Assembly (NCBI GenBank): GCA_022560365.1
Contig: JADFTG010000017.1
Span: 1 to 10,696, forward strand
DNA length: 10,696 nucleotides
Source of the DNA: Chloroflexota bacterium
GTDB lineage: Bacteria > Chloroflexota > Dehalococcoidia > SM23-28-2 > RBG-16-64-32
Reading direction: 5' to 3'
Shown here: positions 1 through 6,985 of the stretch, piece by piece
How positions within the stretch are numbered: position 1 is the first letter of the stretch
Layout of the letters: each line of letters opens with the position of its first letter
Translations under genes and position numbers: made by a program
The notes under the pieces: generated by a model
The model's database searches: none
Told to the model about the DNA's origin: nothing
Seen by the model: only the letters and a program-made list of their open reading frames with translations

Positions 1-107
1 ACTGCGACGGCCTCGATCCAGTGGACGCAATCCTGCTGCTGCGCTTCGACGCCGGCCTGCCGGTCCAGGCGCCGGCCGGCTGCCCCGGCCTGGGCGAACT
101 GGTCTAG
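1..107 (+). CDS. C-terminal fragment of a dockerin-like repeat protein
   Basis: Only the last 34 codons are present, read from base 3 to a TAG at 105-107. The peptide contains DGLDPVDAILLLRFDAGLP followed by a short tail with GCPGLGELV. The spaced Asp residues, the hydrophobic ILLLR helix and the AGLP turn match the end of a type I dockerin-like calcium-binding repeat. In Chloroflexota such repeats commonly close large secreted proteins with a Cys pair (here Cys in CDG and Cys in GCP). The parent protein is therefore probably exported, but its main domain lies outside the window and cannot be named. The gene converges on the crotonase gene: both stop codons share the CTAG at 104-107. Reading frame and motif are seen directly; the family call is by resemblance. 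Confidence 0.7.
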   Translation, partial: CDGLDPVDAILLLRFDAGLPVQAPAGCPGLGELV

Positions 108-871
108 GCGCGGCCTTCCTTTTCCAGCCGGGCCTTGCGCTGCGCCATGAGTCGCGTGTAAAGGAGTATGTCCTGGTCGCTATAGGCCGCCTCGCCCATC
201 TCCGATCCCCGCTTGAGCGCCTTCATGGTCGCCTTCGTCAAGGCGACCGGTAGCGCCGGGTTCGAAATGATCGCATCCGCCAGCGCGCGGGCCTTCGCCT
301 CGACACCGTCGTCCGGCTCGAGGTGCGTCACGAGACCGTACTCGTAGGCGCGCCTGGCGTCGAAGCGCTCACAGGTGATCGTCAGCTCCAGGGCACGGGC
401 GTGGCCCATCTCCCGGGCCAGCCTCGGCAGGGCGTTCCAGCCGAGCGGCAGGCCCAGCTCCACCTCCGGGATCGAGAACCACGTACTCTCACCGGCGACG
501 CGCAGGTCGCAGCAGACCGCCAGGACGAGGCCGCCGCCGATCGCGAACCCCCGCACAGCGGCGATCGTCACCTGGCCCAGGTTCTCGATGTCGCCGGACG
601 TGCGGCTGCCTACTCCCGAGACGTGGCGCACCTCAAGCTCGTTTGGCGATCCGGGATCGCCCCATTCGCTGGTGTCGGCGCCGGCGGAGAAGACCTCCCC
701 CTCGCCGCTGAAGATCACGACGCGCGTGTCGGTGTCGTCGCGCAGCTTGTGGCAGAGATCCTGCAGGTCCGCGTGCATCTGCCGGTTGATCGCGTTGCGC
801 TTTTCGGGCCGGTTCAGGCGAACAGTCAGGAGAGCGCCGTCCCGGCCCAGTTTGATCGTCTCGTAGTCCAT
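104..871 (-). CDS. Enoyl-CoA hydratase/isomerase family protein (crotonase fold)
   Basis: This 255-residue protein has the usual crotonase length. The oxyanion-hole segments are FSAGAD (61-66) and AIGGG (110-114), and the family block from CDLRVAG (121-127) to PEVELGLP (135-142) follows. It would act in the cytoplasm on a CoA thioester. Of the two acids used by classical hydratases, the second is present (Glu136 in PEV), but the position of the first, normally in GGGxE, is Val116. Simple water addition is therefore doubtful, and an isomerase or other crotonase reaction is possible. The ATG at 871 is chosen because GGAGG lies 5 bases upstream; the longer open frame to 1018 would overlap the MFS gene and reads as Arg-rich noise. 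It is the last gene of the minus-strand operon, 28 bases after the MFS gene. Substrate is unknown. Confidence 0.9.
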   Translation of the reverse strand: MDYETIKLGRDGALLTVRLNRPEKRNAINRQMHADLQDLCHKLRDDTDTRVVIFSGEGEVFSAGADTSEWGDPGSPNELEVRHVSGVGSRTSGDIENLGQVTIAAVRGFAIGGGLVLAVCCDLRVAGESTWFSIPEVELGLPLGWNALPRLAREMGHARALELTITCERFDARRAYEYGLVTHLEPDDGVEAKARALADAIISNPALPVALTKATMKALKRGSEMGEAAYSDQDILLYTRLMAQRKARLEKEGRA

Positions 872-876
872 GTCTG

Positions 877-881
877 CCTCC
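877..881 (-). promoter_or_regulatory. Shine-Dalgarno site of the crotonase gene
   Basis: Minus-strand GGAGG stands 5 bases before the ATG at 871. It decides this start over the longer upstream reading frame. Confidence 0.75.
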
Positions 882-899
882 GGCGCACAGTCTACACCG

Positions 900-2168
900 C
901 TACGGCTCAGAGGGCGCTGGCGACGGCGCCCTCTCGTCGATCGGGGTCGAACGCGTCGAGCGCACTGCGGGCAGAAGCGCGATCGCGCCGCCGAGGATCG
1001 TGCCCGCGCAGCCGACAAGGAGCGCCGCGCGCAGGCCCGCCAGTTCGCCGATGACGCCGCCGGCGAGCGAGCCGACCAGCATCGCCGCCAGCGAAGCCTG
1101 CCGCAGAGCGGCGTTGACGCGGCCGAGGAGCCGCTCCGGCGTCACCGCCTGGCGGATCGTCATCTCGTTGACATCGGCGGCGGTCCAAAAGCCGTCACCT
1201 AGTTGTTGACCGATGAGGAACGCGCCGGCGACGATCGAGGCGTCCTGTGCCACGGGGAGAAACAGCATGAACGCGCCGAGCGCCATCCGGCCGAGAGCGA
1301 TCGTCGGGCCGGCACCGATCCGGCGAGCGGAGCGTCCCGCGGACAGAGACCCGATCAGCGAGCTGACCCCGCCGACGGCGAAGATGAAGCCAAGCACACC
1401 AGGTTCGAAGCCCAGCTCCTTCGTGACGAAGAGCATGTAGACCGCGCCGTAGACGCTGAACGAGAACGACACCATGACCTCGCTCGCGCCGAGGACGCGC
1501 AGCACAGAGTGCTGCCTGATCGTGCGCAGGCCCTCCGAGACCTCGGCGCGAAGACCGGGGCGCTCCTCCAGCCGTTCGATCGGCTTCTCCGGTTTGCGAA
1601 TGAAGAGCGTGAAGACGGAGGAGATCAGGAACGAGAAGGCGTCGACGAGCACGGCGATCGGCGCGGTCAGCGCCTGAACGAGCAGGCCGGCTGCGCTGAA
1701 GGCGCCGATCTCAGCGATCGAGTTCGACGCCGCAACCTTTGAGTTGCCTTCGAGGAGCTGCTCCTTTGGCAGGAGCGACGGCACGTAGGCGAAATATGCG
1801 ACGTCGGAGAAGATCGTGAGCGCGCCCGTGCCGACCGCGACGGCGTAGAGGTGGCCCATCGTCAGCGCGTCGAAGGCGTACGCCAGCGGCACGGTCAGGA
1901 GCAGCGCCGCCCGGCCGACGTCTGTCGCGATGAGGATCGGGCGACGGTGCAACCGGTCGACCCAAACGCCGGCGAGGAACCCGAACGCCAGCCCGGGCAC
2001 AATGTCGGCCGCGGCGAGCAGTCCGACTTCGAGCGCGCCAGCGTCGAGCACGAGCACGGCCGCGAAGATCAGTGAGGTGCGTCCGATCAGCGACCCGAAG
2101 ATCGAGATCGTCTCGCCGATCCAGAGCTTCAGGAAGTCGTCGTTGGCCCAGATGCCGGTGCGCTTCAT
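900..2168 (-). CDS. MFS exporter of the macrolide-efflux (DHA3/MFS_3) type
   Basis: A 422-residue integral membrane protein with about 12 hydrophobic segments. The N-terminus FLKLWIGETISIFGSLIGR and the loop 2-3 motif GVWVDRLHRRP (67-77, motif A with Asp71 and Arg72) are typical of the MefA-like / MFS_3 group of proton-driven exporters. A degenerate copy of motif A, SAGRSARRIG, occurs in the second half, and a short Pro/Ser-rich cytoplasmic tail ends the protein. Its ATG overlaps the methyltransferase TGA by 4 bases (ATGA at 2165-2168), and there is no Shine-Dalgarno sequence, so translation is probably coupled. The family has drug exporters and siderophore exporters, so the substrate cannot be read from sequence. 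The neighbouring ABC exporter and amino-sugar methyltransferase favour a drug or secondary metabolite (inference). Confidence 0.9.
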   Translation of the reverse strand: MKRTGIWANDDFLKLWIGETISIFGSLIGRTSLIFAAVLVLDAGALEVGLLAAADIVPGLAFGFLAGVWVDRLHRRPILIATDVGRAALLLTVPLAYAFDALTMGHLYAVAVGTGALTIFSDVAYFAYVPSLLPKEQLLEGNSKVAASNSIAEIGAFSAAGLLVQALTAPIAVLVDAFSFLISSVFTLFIRKPEKPIERLEERPGLRAEVSEGLRTIRQHSVLRVLGASEVMVSFSFSVYGAVYMLFVTKELGFEPGVLGFIFAVGGVSSLIGSLSAGRSARRIGAGPTIALGRMALGAFMLFLPVAQDASIVAGAFLIGQQLGDGFWTAADVNEMTIRQAVTPERLLGRVNAALRQASLAAMLVGSLAGGVIGELAGLRAALLVGCAGTILGGAIALLPAVRSTRSTPIDERAPSPAPSEP

Positions 2169-2896
2169 GATGGATCAAGCGTGGCTACGTCGGCACGGCG
2201 ACCGATGAACAGTCCGCGACCGTTAAGGCCTACGGGATCGTGCTCCAGCGAAAGTCCGCCCGCGTCAGACGTCTTAGCGTAATCGTCCGCGCAGAATGCC
2301 CCGAGCGTGCGCTTCTCTCGAACGTGCTCGACGACACCCTCGCTGATCAGGAGATAGTGGCTATCCTGATGCCAGTAATCACCCTCCAGCTGCGTGCTCT
2401 CAACGCATACTAGCGTCCCCTGCTCGTCGTCAACGCGCTGCAGCCAGGGCGGGGTTGGCGCGGGATTTGTCGGTGGTTCGTCCCACGGCTCAATTATCAA
2501 GAGCCCACCGTCGTTGAGATGACGCGTCATGGCGCCCACTGCTGTCCCTAACCTGGCGCGCGTCGGAAGACAGGCGATCGCCGAGAACAGACAGGTCACA
2601 ACGTCAAACGATCGGCCCAGGTCGAACCCGCTCATGTCCTCGACGTGCAGCGGCACGTCCGGAAGCCGCCTCCGGGCGGCAGTTAGCATCTCTGGCGAAC
2701 TGTCGAGGCCCTCGACCGAATACCATCGCCGCAGCGCCTCCAGATGCCGCCCCGTACCGCAGGCCACGTCAAGCAGCGATTGCGCTCGCGGCGACCTGGA
2801 CTCGATGATCAAGCGAAGCTTCAAAGCCTCAGCGGCGTAGTCCTTCGCCGCGAAGAGACGGTCGTACAGATCCGACCGCCAGGCGCCCGGTGACAT
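2165..2896 (-). CDS. SAM-dependent methyltransferase, TylM1/DesVI-like
   Basis: A 243-residue class I methyltransferase. SAM-binding motif I is LLDVACGTGR (41-50), the ribose-binding acid is Asp65 in VEGLD, and EDMSGFDL (86-93) is the motif III region. The start (YDRLFAAKDYAAEA), the middle (VTCLFSAIACL, IIEPW) and the ending GRGLFIG (226-232) resemble the N-methyltransferases of antibiotic amino sugars (TylM1, DesVI), which dimethylate a sugar 3-amino group on a dTDP-sugar. That resemblance is recalled, not computed; another small-molecule N-methyltransferase remains possible. The ATG at 2896 is used because the upstream frame runs through the permease gene and is not protein-like. It overlaps the MFS gene by 4 bases. 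Codon use differs from its neighbours: 17 of the last 40 sense codons end in A or T, against 4 of the first 40 in typA, which suggests separate ancestry. Confidence 0.85.
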   Translation of the reverse strand: MSPGAWRSDLYDRLFAAKDYAAEALKLRLIIESRSPRAQSLLDVACGTGRHLEALRRWYSVEGLDSSPEMLTAARRRLPDVPLHVEDMSGFDLGRSFDVVTCLFSAIACLPTRARLGTAVGAMTRHLNDGGLLIIEPWDEPPTNPAPTPPWLQRVDDEQGTLVCVESTQLEGDYWHQDSHYLLISEGVVEHVREKRTLGAFCADDYAKTSDAGGLSLEHDPVGLNGRGLFIGRRADVATLDPS

Positions 2897-2915
2897 CCGC
2901 CCTAGCCCTGCCTCT

Positions 2916-3755
2916 TCAACTTCCCGGTGCGCTTCGCCCAGCGCTCCGCCACCGCGAACACAAAGACGGAAAACGGCACCACAGAGCGCCAAAGAGCGCG
3001 AGGATCGCCAGCGTCTCGGCCAGCGCGCCCACGCCCTCGCCTTCGATGATCGCCCCACGGATGCCGTCGAGGATGTAGGTGGCGGGCGAAGCGTATGACA
3101 AGATCTGCAACCAGCCGGGCAGCACTTCGACGCTGTAGTAGACGCCGGAGATCAGCAGGACGACCGCCTGCACCATGAACGACATCTGCGTGCCGCGCTC
3201 CGGATAGAGCAGCGGCAGCACGCCGGCGAGGATGCCCAGCCCGGCGATGCTGACGCTACCGACGGCCATGACGGCGACCGCGGCCAGCCAGTCTGCCTGG
3301 GAGAAGTCGACGGCGAAGAACGGCAGAGCGATGGCGAAGATGAGGAGCGTGCGCACTATCGCGTGCAGCACGCCGAAGACGGACATGCCGACCAGGTGCA
3401 CCCAGCGAGGTACCGGCGCCATGAGCGTATGCTCGATCGTCCCTTCCCAGCGCTCCCAGGTGATGACAAGGCTGATGTCGTCGAGGACGGCCGAGAGGTA
3501 GGCCCAGACGAGCGTGCCCAGGAGGAGGAAGAGGACGAGATCGTTGGCATCGCGGGCGCCGGCGATCCCGGCCTGCTCCACCTCCCTGGCGATGAACGTG
3601 ATCGCCAGCGTGTTGACCACGCCGTAGACCAGCCACACCAGCTCCCAGGCCCAGTAGCGCTTCCAGAGGTTCGTCTGCCGCTCCACGAACGCCCAGGCCA
3701 GGATTACCGGCCCGGTCGAGCGCGAAGCGGCCATCGGATTCGTGAAGCTAGCCAT
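2916..3755 (-). CDS. ABC-2 type transporter permease, apparently frameshifted near its C-terminus
   Basis: As sequenced this is 279 residues: the membrane half of an ABC-2 (DrrB-like) exporter, with five clear membrane segments and the loop WERWEGTIEHTLMAPV after the second, which fits the family coupling region. From residue 260 the frame turns into CRFPSLCSRWRSAG and so on, which is unlike a permease. Adding one G to the GG at 2979-2980 moves the reading to a hydrophobic stretch and then AERWAKRTGKLKRQG, a natural basic C-terminus of about 284 residues stopping with TAG at 2902-2904. The lost base may be a sequencing error or a real mutation; the real form would lose most of the sixth membrane helix. 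The start overlaps the ATPase gene by 8 bases, with GGAG 9 bases upstream of the ATG. It partners the ATPase directly before it. Confidence 0.85.
   Translation of the reverse strand: MASFTNPMAASRSTGPVILAWAFVERQTNLWKRYWAWELVWLVYGVVNTLAITFIAREVEQAGIAGARDANDLVLFLLLGTLVWAYLSAVLDDISLVITWERWEGTIEHTLMAPVPRWVHLVGMSVFGVLHAIVRTLLIFAIALPFFAVDFSQADWLAAVAVMAVGSVSIAGLGILAGVLPLLYPERGTQMSFMVQAVVLLISGVYYSVEVLPGWLQILSYASPATYILDGIRGAIIEGEGVGALAETLAILALFGALWCRFPSLCSRWRSAGRSAPGS
2979..2980 (-). other. Likely one-base deletion in a G run of the permease gene
   Basis: The minus strand reads CTGTGGTGCCG here. With three G in place of two, the frame continues Leu-Trp-Val-Pro-Phe into a hydrophobic helix and a basic tail, and ends 5 bases before the methyltransferase ATG, matching the tight spacing elsewhere in the operon. 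Confidence 0.75.
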
Positions 3756-4659
3756 GGGCCGCCATCTCCGCCGGCGCTTCGTCCTCTTCGAGGTCGTGGC
3801 CGGTCAGCTCCATGAAGACGTCTTCCATGTCGATCTCCTCCACTGGACGGCCGCGCGCAACCCGCTCGCGCAACTCGAGCGGCGTCCCGCTGGCGACTAT
3901 GCGTCCGCCGGCGATGAACGAGATGCGGTCGCAGAGGATCTCCGCTTCCTCCATGTCGTGGGTCGTCAGGAGGATCGTCACGTCGTGGTCGCGTTGGACA
4001 TCGCGAATGAAGCGCTGGACGTCGCGCCGCGAGCGCGGGTCGAGGCCGGTCGTTGGCTCGTCCAGCAACATCATGACCGGCGACGTGAGGAATGAGCGCG
4101 CGACCGCCACCTTCTGCTGCTGGCCACGAGAGAGGTGGTTCATCGGCTCGCTCGCCATCTCCTCCTTGAAGCCGAGGCGACGCAGCACTTCCGGCACCAG
4201 CACCCGGATCTCGCCGGGAGAGAGGCCGTAGATGCGCCCGAAGAAGAGCAGGTTCTCGTACGACGACATGTTGCGAAAGAACGAAGGGTCGGCCGACACG
4301 CGGTTGATCAGCGCGCGCACGGAGCCCGATGCTTTGACGACGTCGTGGCCAAACACCTCGACGCTGCCGCTGTCGGGCAGGAGCAGCGTGCTGAGGACGC
4401 GCACCAGCGTCGACTTGCCGGAGCCGTTGGCGCCGATGAGGCCGAAGACCTCGCCTCGCCGCACCTCGAACGAGACGTCCCGCAGCACGTGCGCCACCGC
4501 CGGCCGGCTCGCGGTCACCGGCAGACACCACGACACGAGCTTGCGGTAGTCGAAACCGCCGCCGAAGTATTTGCTTACGTTGGTCACCTTGAGTGCTTGC
4601 TGTTCCATCTCAGCCTCCCTGCTGGTCTCCGGGCTCGCTGGTTCGAATGATCGGCTCAT
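3748..4659 (-). CDS. ABC transporter ATP-binding protein (drug-export type)
   Basis: With the start used here the protein has 303 residues. Walker A is GANGSGKST (76-84), the signature is LSRGQQQ (176-182), Walker B is VMMLLDE (195-201) and the switch His is His234 in LTTHDMEEAE. It is the cytoplasmic motor of an ABC-2 exporter formed with the next gene. The Q-loop lacks its usual Gln: the segment reads VSADPSFF, a variant also known in an ATPase subgroup of ABC-2 exporters. Two starts are credible. ATG 4659 has GGAGG 6 bases upstream; ATG 4608 (286 residues, starting MEQQALKVTNVSKYF, where family similarity begins) has AGGGAGG 5 bases upstream. A GTG at 4719 is rejected because it lies in the terminator tract. 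It is the first structural gene of the operon, 60 bases after that terminator. Confidence 0.92.
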   Translation of the reverse strand: MSRSFEPASPETSREAEMEQQALKVTNVSKYFGGGFDYRKLVSWCLPVTASRPAVAHVLRDVSFEVRRGEVFGLIGANGSGKSTLVRVLSTLLLPDSGSVEVFGHDVVKASGSVRALINRVSADPSFFRNMSSYENLLFFGRIYGLSPGEIRVLVPEVLRRLGFKEEMASEPMNHLSRGQQQKVAVARSFLTSPVMMLLDEPTTGLDPRSRRDVQRFIRDVQRDHDVTILLTTHDMEEAEILCDRISFIAGGRIVASGTPLELRERVARGRPVEEIDMEDVFMELTGHDLEEDEAPAEMAAHG

Positions 4660-4670
4660 GGCTTGCCTCC
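4614..4670 (-). promoter_or_regulatory. Two alternative ribosome binding sites of the ABC ATPase gene
   Basis: Minus-strand GGAGG (4666-4670) lies 6 bases before ATG 4659, and AGGGAGG (4614-4620) lies 5 bases before the in-frame ATG 4608. Both are well placed, and the 17 residues between them (MSRSFEPASPETSREAE) are polar and outside the family domain. Both starts may be used. Confidence 0.6.
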
Positions 4671-4719
4671 GCTGTGTCAGTGGCACTTGCTGCGTGAATT
4701 CGGCCGTCTTCGGGCACAC

Positions 4720-4751
4720 AAAAAACCCACTACGCCGATGCGGTAGTGGGT
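4720..4751 (-). terminator. Intrinsic terminator in the operon leader
   Basis: A perfect 9-bp inverted repeat, ACCCACTAC (4725-4733) and GTAGTGGGT (4743-4751) with a 9-base loop, is followed on the minus strand by six T (4725-4720). No T run follows on the plus strand, so it works only for leftward transcripts. It lies about 165 bases after the probable transcription start and 60 bases before the ABC ATPase gene, so as drawn it would stop the operon transcript before any structural gene. That placement suggests an attenuator. It could instead simply end a transcript of the 46-codon ORF upstream. Confidence 0.85.
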
Positions 4752-4820
4752 CGAGAATCGTGATCCGCTCAGGCTAAGTTAGGTAGACGCCTCCGAGCTG
4801 AACGCACTCGTCCCACATAC
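4743..4820 (-). promoter_or_regulatory. Candidate antiterminator pairing of an attenuator
   Basis: Minus-strand GTATGTGGG (4820-4812), inside the leader ORF at codons 24-26, can pair with CCCACTAC (4750-4743), the 5' arm of the terminator. This gives 8 base pairs with one bulged T, and the two structures exclude each other. A ribosome covering codons 24-26 would permit the terminator; one halted earlier would leave the segment free and allow readthrough. The pairing was found by eye with no energy calculation. Confidence 0.5.
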
Positions 4821-4889
4821 GCGCACGACACCGAGCAGCGCGGTCGCCGCGCCGTGCGGGTCGCTGAGGATGCCGTTGCATACGCGCAT
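4779..4889 (-). CDS. Putative 36-residue leader peptide
   Basis: A short ORF begins MRVCNGILSD, continues with LLGVVRVCGTS in its middle and ends FSSEAST, stopping with TAA 27 bases before the terminator hairpin. AAAGGAG lies 11 bases before its ATG, a rather long spacing, and the ATG is only about 27 bases from the predicted transcription start. Thirty of its 36 sense codons end in G or C, as in real genes here. There is no run of one amino acid, so an amino-acid starvation sensor is not suggested. Position and overlap with the antiterminator segment suggest that its translation, rather than its product, matters, as in drug-inducible attenuators. A six-codon frame (MKGALV, ATG at 4910) ends directly before its ATG. 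Confidence 0.5.
   Translation of the reverse strand: MRVCNGILSDPHGAATALLGVVRVCGTSAFSSEAST
4816..4888 (-). repeat. Short direct repeat TGCGCGTATG within the leader ORF
   Basis: The 10-mer TGCGCGTATG occurs at 4888-4879 and again at 4825-4816 in the same frame, so Arg-Val-Cys is encoded twice (codons 2-4 and 23-25). The second copy overlaps the antiterminator segment. It may be chance in GC-rich sequence. Confidence 0.5.
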
Positions 4890-4922
4890 CTAAACGAGTG
4901 CTCCTTTCATGGATTCCAGCGC

Positions 4923-4951
4923 AGCGTAACAGCGGCGCAGAAGGCTGTCAA
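4923..4951 (-). promoter_or_regulatory. Sigma70-type promoter of the export operon
   Basis: The minus strand has a perfect -35 box TTGACA (4951-4946), a 17-base spacer and a -10 box TACGCT (4928-4923). Transcription would start near 4916, placing the leader ORF and terminator in the first 200 bases of the transcript. There is no other convincing promoter before the ABC ATPase gene. Confidence 0.7.
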
Positions 4952-4969: not shown

Positions 4970-5110
4970 TCACTGCGTGTAGCGCACGTCGGTTACCTCG
5001 CCGTCCACGAGGCTGACGCGCACGTGCGGCTCGCCGCCGCGTATCGCCGTGTCGGAAGACGGAAAGTAGACGTGCAGGACGTCGCCGAAACCTGTCAATC
5101 GTGCCGCCAT
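4970..5110 (-). CDS. Small hypothetical protein (46 residues)
   Basis: An ATG-started frame encodes a peptide that contains GFGDVLHVYFPSSD near its start and HVRVSLVDGEVTDVRYTQ at its end. The alternating hydrophobic and polar pattern looks like a small beta-sheet protein, and most codons end in G or C. No signal peptide or membrane segment is visible, and I recognise no family. No clear ribosome binding site precedes the ATG. It ends 19 bases before the -35 box of the operon promoter and is divergent from typA, whose start is 42 bases away. It may be a genuine small gene or the remnant of a larger one; in-frame reading upstream meets a TAG 8 codons before the ATG. Confidence 0.45.
   Translation of the reverse strand: MAARLTGFGDVLHVYFPSSDTAIRGGEPHVRVSLVDGEVTDVRYTQ

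Positions 5111-5152: not shown

Positions 5153-6985
<1,833 letters not shown>

Follow-up and report, generated by a model that had tools for sequence, protein, structure and literature searches.

The exporter operon in the window, by which we mean the whole 10,696-nucleotide stretch of Chloroflexota DNA that was analyzed, follows a leader that is probably (at roughly 0.78) a transcription attenuator controlled by a short leader open reading frame (ORF). Such a leader would turn the pump on when ribosomes are slowed, for example by antibiotics. An attenuator at this place had been proposed in the sequence-only reading, and comparison with relatives supports it: the leader ORF and the terminator are conserved, the putative antiterminator shows compensatory changes, and the leader is present in 18 of 18 genomes of the class that have the ATPase and DNA upstream of it.

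The leader and its operon in the window

The promoter, Shine-Dalgarno sequence, 36-codon ORF, hairpin and ATPase ribosome binding site described in the sequence-only reading are all confirmed, on the minus strand. The sigma-70-type promoter (4923..4951) consists of TTGACA (4951-4946), a 17-nt spacer and a weak -10 element, TACGCT (4928-4923), which matches TATAAT at three of six positions. The Shine-Dalgarno sequence AAAGGAG (4907-4901) overlaps segment 1, GGAGCACTCGT (4904-4894), the two together covering 4894..4907, and segment 1 is capable of pairing with segment 2 in this leader. The leader ORF (4779..4889; MRVCNGILSDPHGAATALLGVVRVCGTSAFSSEAST) begins with the ATG at 4889 and has 36 sense codons and a TAA ending at 4779. 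Within it lies the conserved core, or segment 2 (GTATGTGGGACGAGTGCGTTCA, 4799..4820), which contains the putative antiterminator strand, GTGGGACGAG (4816-4807). The last base of the TAA stands 35 nt from the core, and a second stop, TAG, follows two bases on in another frame (both stops, 4774..4781). Segment 3 (CTCGACCCAC, 4746..4755) has two possible partners: segment 2, in an antiterminator, and segment 4, with which its part from 4751 onward would form the terminator. The intrinsic terminator (4720..4751) has its stem at 4751-4743 and 4733-4725, its loop at 4742-4734 and its T run at 4725-4720; the stem, ACCCACTAC/GTAGTGGGT, is perfect, with 9 bp, a 9-nt loop and six T, and folding of the window's leader gives a minimum free energy of -20.0 kcal/mol for the region from the stop to the T run. 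A consensus scan of the window reported no promoters, and the leader terminator is missing from its list, the scan allowing loops of at most 8 nt where this one has 9. Judged without relatives, the parts of the window's leader are weak evidence.

The first gene after the terminator (3748..4659, minus strand) encodes a DrrA-type ABC ATPase, with its ATG at 4659 and its ribosome binding site, GGAGG, at 4670-4666; it scores over the cut-off of PF00005, and its best NCBIfam model, TIGR01188 (drrA), gives 224.8 bits, under the cut-off of 312. There follow on the same strand a second gene for an ABC-2 type permease (2916..3755; PF01061, 58.4 bits), a SAM-dependent methyltransferase with an uncertain start (2165..3058; PF13649, 55.9 bits), an MFS transporter (900..2168; PF07690, 93 bits; TIGR00900, 181 bits, under its cut-off), and an enoyl-CoA hydratase/isomerase family protein whose true start is probably 3' of the listed TTG (104..1018). 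The methyltransferase had earlier been called amino-sugar-type, a label we drop: it matched only general methyltransferase domains, with NCBIfam models under their cut-offs.

Distribution and conservation among relatives

Homology searches and two covariance models, whose E-values are rough by the tool's own statement, yielded 22 distinct leaders, of which 21 come from the window's class of Chloroflexota and one (G696) from another class; the genus of G696 supplied two further leaders on top of the 22. The presence in two classes is compatible with common descent and with transfer alike. Every one of the 18 class genomes with an ATPase match at E<=1e-85 and upstream DNA present has the leader upstream of the ATPase; a nineteenth ATPase genome, G001, was left out because its contig begins within the gene. 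An operon retained without leader ORF and hairpin, the counterexample named in the sequence-only reading, was sought, and none was found among these 18. A leader profile built from six peptides and run against 393 class genomes recovered its own six source leaders and returned 11 other weak matches (E 2.1e-4 to 0.0065), none of them at a place where a leader was later found; leaders of other families escaped it but were picked up by the covariance models. Five candidates (L125, L128, L129, L135 and L136) were set aside for want of a full set of promoter, ORF and terminator. Rfam, T-box and riboswitch families included, gave no match at the leader, either for the window (E up to 1) or for seven related loci (E up to 0.1). 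With at most two mismatches allowed, the core matched its own genome at 24 places, against 33 for a reversed control, and the sole exact match was the leader.

An exporter follows the leader in all 22 cases. A DrrA-type ATPase stands behind 21 of them, its permease having been seen in 20 (G239 not read so far); the G133 operon has an MsbA-type ABC pair, and G079 has an MsbA-type pair as well as the DrrA type. The gene run of G008 includes one protein of the ABC-F ribosomal-protection-like kind (NF000355, 415 bits against a cut-off of 380) and one that is RtcB-like (models under their cut-offs), and G011 has ORFs similar to both. Because the cargo consists of exporters, joined in some operons by ABC-F and RtcB-like proteins, the inducer may well be slowed translation, caused most simply by ribosome-targeting drugs.

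All 22 leaders have TTGAC[AT], a spacer of 17-18 nt and a -10 element starting TA, the promoters of G213 and G696 having been read by eye. The leader ORF, 33-42 codons long, has an open frame in all 22, whereas over the same span the other two frames are open in 2 and 10 of them; an SD-like sequence precedes the ORF in 20. A hairpin and T-rich run are likewise found in all 22, with the T run interrupted in G106. These counts are not independent, because the leaders are related; by sequence comparison, the leader parts set against their relatives are confirmed to exceed chance. A complete unit of promoter, ribosome binding site, ORF and terminator ahead of an exporter could also represent an independent small gene that ends at its own terminator, with the exporter promoter lying downstream. 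The gap behind the terminator is at least 100 nt in at least five genomes (218-230 nt in G008, G009 and G011, 492 in G079 and 103 in G106), long enough to leave room for another promoter. In 12 of the 22 leaders, however, at most 45 nt separate the T run from the first candidate start codon of the following gene (20 nt in G133, 25 in G203 and in G239, 26 in G092), a distance too short for the usual kind of separate promoter; the window's own gap is 60 nt, and in these counts the G006 gap is without a value. With exporters behind every leader as well, and compensatory change linking the ORF to the terminator arm, a separate gene is very unlikely.

The spacing between core and stop is 35 nt in 20 of the 22 leaders, a second stop follows the TAA in 20, and the core occupies the same ORF frame in the 18 leaders compared. 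Its consensus, GUGGGUsGGAYGAGUGYGYCC, is conserved at third codon positions, beyond the needs of pairing between segments 2 and 3 (17 leaders). Pooled pN/pS for the leader peptide is 0.50, against 0.84 and 1.47 in the other frames (three close pairs with few changes), a sign that coding constraint on the peptide is weak, which counts against the attenuator reading. Such third-position conservation and slight peptide constraint, together with a 2:3 pairing that free nascent RNA is predicted to favor in 17 of the 22 leaders without any ribosome, would suit a factor-bound antiterminator or riboswitch, in which the core and the TGANNTAG block would be the binding site of a protein, a small RNA or a ligand, and the ORF would play no part. 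An incidental ORF would hardly be expected to keep its frame, its SD-like sequence, and its register and spacing relative to the core so widely; nor did Rfam match the leader in the window or the seven related loci, and we regard this explanation as unlikely.

The motif V-G-G-[TMI]-S-[AV] occurs in 10 of the 22 peptides, and looser forms in the rest, at a nearly constant distance to the stop. Peptide-specific arrest in the style of Erm, MsrD or TnaC, with the nascent peptide and a particular drug stalling the ribosome at one codon, possibly the stop, could produce this pattern, and arrest at the stop codon would explain the fixed 35-nt spacing. The same residues are expected, however, from RNA constraint on segment 2, and flanking residues vary freely among families. 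The macrolide-arrest motif [RK]x[RK], absent from the window's own leader peptide, is not enriched either (9 of 22 peptides, against 7.2 expected by shuffling), and arrest of this kind seems quite improbable. An amino-acid-sensing attenuator of the trp or his type would present its parts in the same order, but the longest run of a single residue in any of the 22 peptides is three and the first genes encode exporters rather than biosynthetic enzymes, leaving that explanation with hardly any probability. In the -1 frame, W-D-E-C-[AV] was read by eye at the core of 12 of the 22, with changes there mostly synonymous; C/T changes in that frame are not telling, because pairing would produce them just as readily. 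In G154 the frame lacks a start and reaches its stop after only 13 open codons, which makes coding there doubtful.

Alternative pairings and the proposed switch

The pairing of segments 2 and 3 joins the 3' part of the ORF, GUGGGACGAG, to the 5' arm of the terminator, CUCGACCCAC. Across the 22 leaders, with pairs taken from each leader's predicted duplex, cognate segments averaged -20.1 kcal/mol against -17.7 for permuted ones, and 0 of 100,000 permutations did as well. The figure was 1 of 100,000 for 19 non-redundant leaders and 2 of 100,000 when permutation was kept within families (mean -18.4 kcal/mol). One standard pair replaces another at core positions -2 (UA/CG/UG), -1 (GC/CG), +3 (CG/UA/UG/GC), +4 (GC/CG) and +6 (GC/GU/AU/CG). 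These compensatory changes support a putative antiterminator overlapping the 5' arm of the terminator. The predicted duplex is weak in G696, from the other class (-11.4 kcal/mol, or -10.6 with a shorter window), and reaches -15.0 and -12.9 kcal/mol in its two relatives. A local hairpin placed at the core by RNAalifold (model R1) could not be made out by eye in the f68 leaders, and model R2 was built without it. Folding with a ribosome footprint on the start codon left segments 2 and 3 paired in 21 of the 22 leaders, and in none of the 22 once the P site was placed about ten codons short of the stop; with segment 2 shuffled in the start-stalled RNA, 35% of 110 controls paired above the same cut-off, and because of this the folding profile is supporting evidence only.

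Strong pairing of segment 2 with the ribosome binding site region, segment 1, is predicted for the window's own leader and appears favored in its free RNA; termination would therefore be expected there without a ribosome as well. Over the 22 leaders, 28,561 of 100,000 permutations were as good as the cognate 1:2 pairing. A start-anchored window against segment 2 was equaled by 8,478 of 20,000 permutations and narrower start windows by 2,506 of 20,000. Core-relative windows gave mixed results in 36 tests: the best of them, around the start, was equaled by 103 of 20,000, not significant after correction, and codons just 5' of the core paired with their cognate segment 2 no better than with others and often worse (up to 19,968 of 20,000). 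Because the permutation tests across leaders gave no support, the 1:2 stem is not claimed as conserved. The sequence-only reading had suggested looking for a conserved leader ORF and two covarying alternative stems: the ORF and terminator proved conserved and the antiterminator covaries, whereas the anti-antiterminator, strong in the window's leader, gained no support across the set.

In the attenuator model, the predicted transcription start lies some 26 nt ahead of the leader ORF. Once RNA polymerase had passed the ORF, segment 2 in its 3' part and segment 3 in the terminator 5' arm could pair; while they did, segment 3 would be unavailable to segment 4, no terminator would form and the exporter genes would be transcribed. 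A ribosome arriving on time would mask segment 2 as segments 3 and 4 emerged, so that the terminator formed and the operon stayed off. If the ribosome were instead stalled at the start or on the early codons, segment 2 would stay free for the antiterminator and the operon would come on. Because the ORF is conserved, we infer that it is translated and that the position of ribosomes on it acts as the sensor that sets the switch.

This attenuator model assigns no role to the tandem stop or to the fixed 35-nt distance from core to stop. It is possible, though doubtful, that the family is an old one, present in two classes, with a geometry set by the stop codon, and that it sounds a general alarm when translation stalls. 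A ribosome that terminated without delay would then sit between segments 2 and 3 and keep them apart, the 35-nt distance and the second stop would serve that placement, and the switch would sense timely completion and leaving of the ORF rather than one codon or one drug. Such an alarm would switch on export and, in some genera, ABC-F ribosome protection and RtcB-like RNA repair.

Comparison with known systems

Drug-responsive attenuators with upstream ORFs (uORFs) have been worked out mainly in Firmicutes, with Streptomyces and E. coli cases also named; the Chloroflexota are a phylum known chiefly from uncultured genomes, and now have an attenuator family supported by covariation. The leader could be used as a marker of exporter operons that may respond to stress on translation, and with its fixed geometry it lends itself to a clean test of ribosome position as a determinant of termination. 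Four-segment attenuators of the trp type have mutually exclusive segment pairings before a T run, and the Chloroflexota leader resembles them in this. It has no run of regulatory codons, however; its segment 2 lies within the ORF, whereas that of trp-type attenuators lies behind it, and its 1:2 pairing is not general. T-box leaders also set an antiterminator against a terminator before an operon; unlike them, the Chloroflexota leader has an ORF, and no T-box matched it in the Rfam scans.

The vmlR leader of Bacillus subtilis (PMC9226507) and rli80-hflXr of Listeria (PMC6310831) resemble the Chloroflexota leader in having a uORF, antiterminator and terminator; they also have an anti-antiterminator, which in the Chloroflexota is predicted for the window's own leader, and in both a ribosome stalled on the uORF is reported to lead to antitermination. 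The vmlR leader adds a hairpin that sequesters the SD sequence and RNA polymerase pausing (PMC9226507), and the rli80 ORF encodes 14 residues that include an RLR motif (PMC6310831), a kind of motif not enriched in the Chloroflexota leaders. The downstream gene there is ABC-F or HflXr (PMC9226507, PMC6310831), whereas two Chloroflexota operons have ABC-F as a later gene (G008, and G011 by its similar ORF).

The bmrB leader of the B. subtilis multidrug ABC exporter bmrCD, is reported to be induced by a subset of ribosome-targeting antibiotics and likewise places a short ORF, an intrinsic terminator and a predicted antiterminator ahead of its ABC multidrug exporter; an anti-antiterminator is predicted there too (PMC4191407), as it is for the window's own leader. 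It belongs to a different phylum and mostly a different exporter class, and the two were compared by description, not by sequence. The bmrB terminator lies inside the 53-codon ORF (PMC4191407), that of the Chloroflexota leader past the ORF stop. Removing the bmrB start codon is reported to lower reporter expression (PMC4191407), whereas most Chloroflexota leaders are predicted to be on when untranslated; the bmrB result counts against our model because a default-on antiterminator predicts otherwise. Set beside these systems, the leader is a new, unnamed family, and the kind of control is one already known.

Leader anatomy and distribution

The sequence-only reading described a promoter, a ribosome binding site (RBS), a 36-codon ORF, a hairpin followed by six T and then an ABC ATPase gene, and all of these parts are found on the minus strand of the window, at 4951-4659. 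Taken without relatives they would not convince, since the -10 element matches at three of six positions, a consensus promoter scan of the window found no promoter, and the terminator, because its loop is 9 nt, is missing from the terminator scan list. The window is an entire contig (C18, 10,696 bases); the assembly it belongs to totals 1.65 Mb over 343 contigs and is 76% complete. Just 5' of the leader promoter lies a small-ORF remnant, GDVLHVYFPSSDTAIRGGEPHVRVSLVDGEVTDVRYTQ (4970-5089, minus strand), whose relative in G002, a genome of the same genus, is a 71-residue ORF (locus L002, 1802-2017). Divergent from the leader is typA/bipA, for a ribosome-associated GTPase (5153-6985, plus strand); its start is likewise divergent, by eye, in G009 and G008.

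The leader of G002 is 83% identical and has a 36-codon ORF, MHICTGIFSDPHGAATALSGVVRVRGASAFSLEATT. The ATPase occurs at E<=1e-60 in 7 of 15 genomes of the window's family, six of them with upstream DNA present; promoter, ORF and terminator occur in each of these six. A covariance model built from these six leaders, R1, has matches at E<=0.01 in 20 genomes of the 393 searched in the class. Full leaders are present in 17 of these, the six model leaders included; the other three matches were dropped. A second model, R2, built from the 17 leaders, matched 21 of the 393 class genomes with a full leader in every one, and an additional match in G006 was dropped. Among 400 genomes drawn from the phylum R2 gave seven matches: five known before, one in G471 that was dropped, and one in G696, from another class, that was kept. 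In the genus of G696 the leader is present in three of three genomes at E<=0.1 (21 genomes of the family searched). The statistics below rest on 22 distinct leaders, that of G696 and 21 in the class, spread over families f1, f21, f68, f54 and f30; leaders found later in G743 and G744 stand outside this set.

Linkage to the exporter and operon content

A search of 294 class genomes with the window ATPase finds 19 that match at E<=1e-85. One, G001, whose contig starts within the ATPase gene, was left out of the leader count. The remaining 18 all carry the leader, so that the comparison with relatives proposed in the sequence-only reading came out in its favor. An ATPase scan of a named genome collection (84,980 species) gave a best 80 loci, of which 79 were scanned with R1 (L105 left out). 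R1 matches six; a seventh leader, at L034, was recognized by eye and is that of G231, which R2 matches. These seven loci among the best 80 hold ATPase orthologs of 63-92% identity, the named ones labeled Chloroflexota, Chloroflexi or Dehalococcoidia, while the other 72 scanned loci, at <=43% identity and some with little upstream DNA, show no R1 match at E<=0.1. The leader therefore accompanies this exporter, not ABC ATPases in general.

The sole exception in cargo is G133 (locus L152), with an MsbA-type ABC exporter pair behind the leader in place of the DrrA type; G079 (L154) has both kinds in a row, the MsbA-type pair behind the DrrA/DrrB-type pair. A permease was observed in 20 of the 21 genomes having the DrrA-type ATPase. 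One gene run in G008 includes an ABC-F protein, scoring 415 bits against the NCBIfam cut-off of 380 for ribosomal-protection-like ABC-F, and an RtcB-like protein with model matches under cut-offs; G011 has similar ORFs. The order behind the leader at L138 (G008) and L139 (G011) is ATPase, ABC-F, permease, RtcB-like, MFS and enoyl-CoA hydratase, with families tested for the ABC-F and RtcB-like proteins of G008 and the MFS protein of G011 and the others assigned by eye. Because exporters stand behind 22 of 22 leaders, and some of the operons contain ABC-F and RtcB-like genes, gene content points to drug induction as the likeliest use of the predicted attenuator.

Two side observations concern these operons. 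At L003 (1605-1823) and in G006, G008 and G011, the terminator and the ATPase gene have between them an ORF rich in Lys and Arg, very roughly 55-70 residues long (partly by eye). The permease ORF of the window ends (2916-2980, minus strand) in ~20 residues unlike the relatives' C-terminus, as if the frame had shifted close to its 3' end, whether in reality or by assembly error.

An improbable alternative is that the exporter genes start from a promoter of their own beyond the terminator. The gap between the T run and the downstream gene's first candidate start, measured in every leader but that of G006, is <=45 nt in 12 of 22 leaders and 47-62 nt in four (60 in the window), but 103 in G106, 218-230 in G008, G009 and G011, and 492 in G079. 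By length, a separate downstream promoter could be accommodated in these last five and perhaps in G006.

Leader ORF and alternative pairings

The leader ORF spans 33-42 codons. Its frame is open in all 22 leaders, against 2 and 10 of 22 for the two alternative frames over the same span, and an SD-like sequence is present in 20. The peptides are variable, with V-G-G-[TMI]-S-[AV] exact in 10 of 22 and looser in the rest, and coding constraint on them is weak: three pairs pooled give a pN/pS of 0.50, the other frames 0.84 and 1.47. Conservation is strongest at the RNA level: in 17 leaders a core, GUGGGUsGGAYGAGUGYGYCC, is conserved including third codon positions, as is a block at the stop codon, UGANNUAG. 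The start codon lies at a variable distance from the core (70-94 nt in 18 leaders), whereas the core GG stands 35 nt from the end of the stop codon in 20 of 22 (29 in G092, 32 in G696). In 20 of 22 leaders tandem stops in two frames close the ORF (4774-4781 in the window), the second lying two bases on. Read by eye in the -1 frame (4799-4816 in the window), the core gives W-D-E-C-[AV] in 12 of the 22, with mostly synonymous changes; several leaders have no start codon for that frame.

The core (segment 2) can pair with segment 3, the terminator 5' arm, as a putative antiterminator. In the window, minus strand, GUGGGACGAG (4816-4807) pairs with CUCGACCCAC (4755-4746), which takes in the first part of that arm, through nine pairs and one A-A mismatch. 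Over 18 leaders the cognate mean is -19.6 against -17.6 kcal/mol for non-cognate pairs, with 2 of 20,000 permutations as good (7 of 20,000 for 15 non-redundant leaders); over all 22 the means are -20.1 and -17.7 kcal/mol, with 0 of 100,000 as good (1 of 100,000 for 19 non-redundant leaders). Permutation restricted to families, a control that preserves family relatedness, leaves 2 of 100,000. Two-sided changes occur at core -2, -1, +3, +4 and +6, and the weakest duplex is that of G696 (-11.4). Terminator regions differ widely in sequence and retain the hairpin (-17.8 to -26.8 kcal/mol).

Pairing of the core with segment 1, at the RBS, is strong in the window and in several leaders of families f1 and f21; in most of those from f68 it is weak. 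Across the leader set this pairing found no support, and the stem may be a local refinement. Free folding of the window's own leader RNA prefers it (GGAGCACTCGU with ACGAGUGCGUUC), with 2:3 near zero, at 0.08 against 1.52 in the start-stalled state (units of eight pairs), making this leader a clean predicted switch.

Predicted ribosome control and known systems

Nascent RNA was folded as far as segment 3 with a 32-nt ribosome footprint masked codon by codon. The 2:3 pairing is predicted in 21 of 22 leaders when a ribosome occupies the start codon, and in 17 when the RNA carries no ribosome; it disappears while the P site moves from roughly 17 to 7 codons ahead of the stop, a span of about eleven codons, and partially returns at the stop. 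Because 35% of 110 start-stalled foldings with segment 2 shuffled still exceed the cut-off, we treat this profile as illustrative only, and covariation as the evidence. A ribosome parked on the stop codon would sit between segments 2 and 3, an obstacle the folding program ignores; since it would separate them, timely termination might itself hold the two apart, a reading we consider rather unlikely.

As far as anatomy and evolution go, the evidence supports interpreting the leader as a transcription attenuator. No family among the Rfam covariance models matches at the leader. Among the open-access papers listed for attenuation, leader peptides and antiterminators in Chloroflexi, Chloroflexota or Dehalococcoidia, judged by title and start of abstract and with most subscription papers outside this scope, none describes such an element. 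One of them mentions Chloroflexi in its references alone, and in PMC2965389 and PMC8632094 the word does not occur in the main text. The known systems bmrB-bmrCD (PMC4191407), vmlR (PMC9226507) and rli80-hflXr (PMC6310831) share their logic with the Chloroflexota leader.
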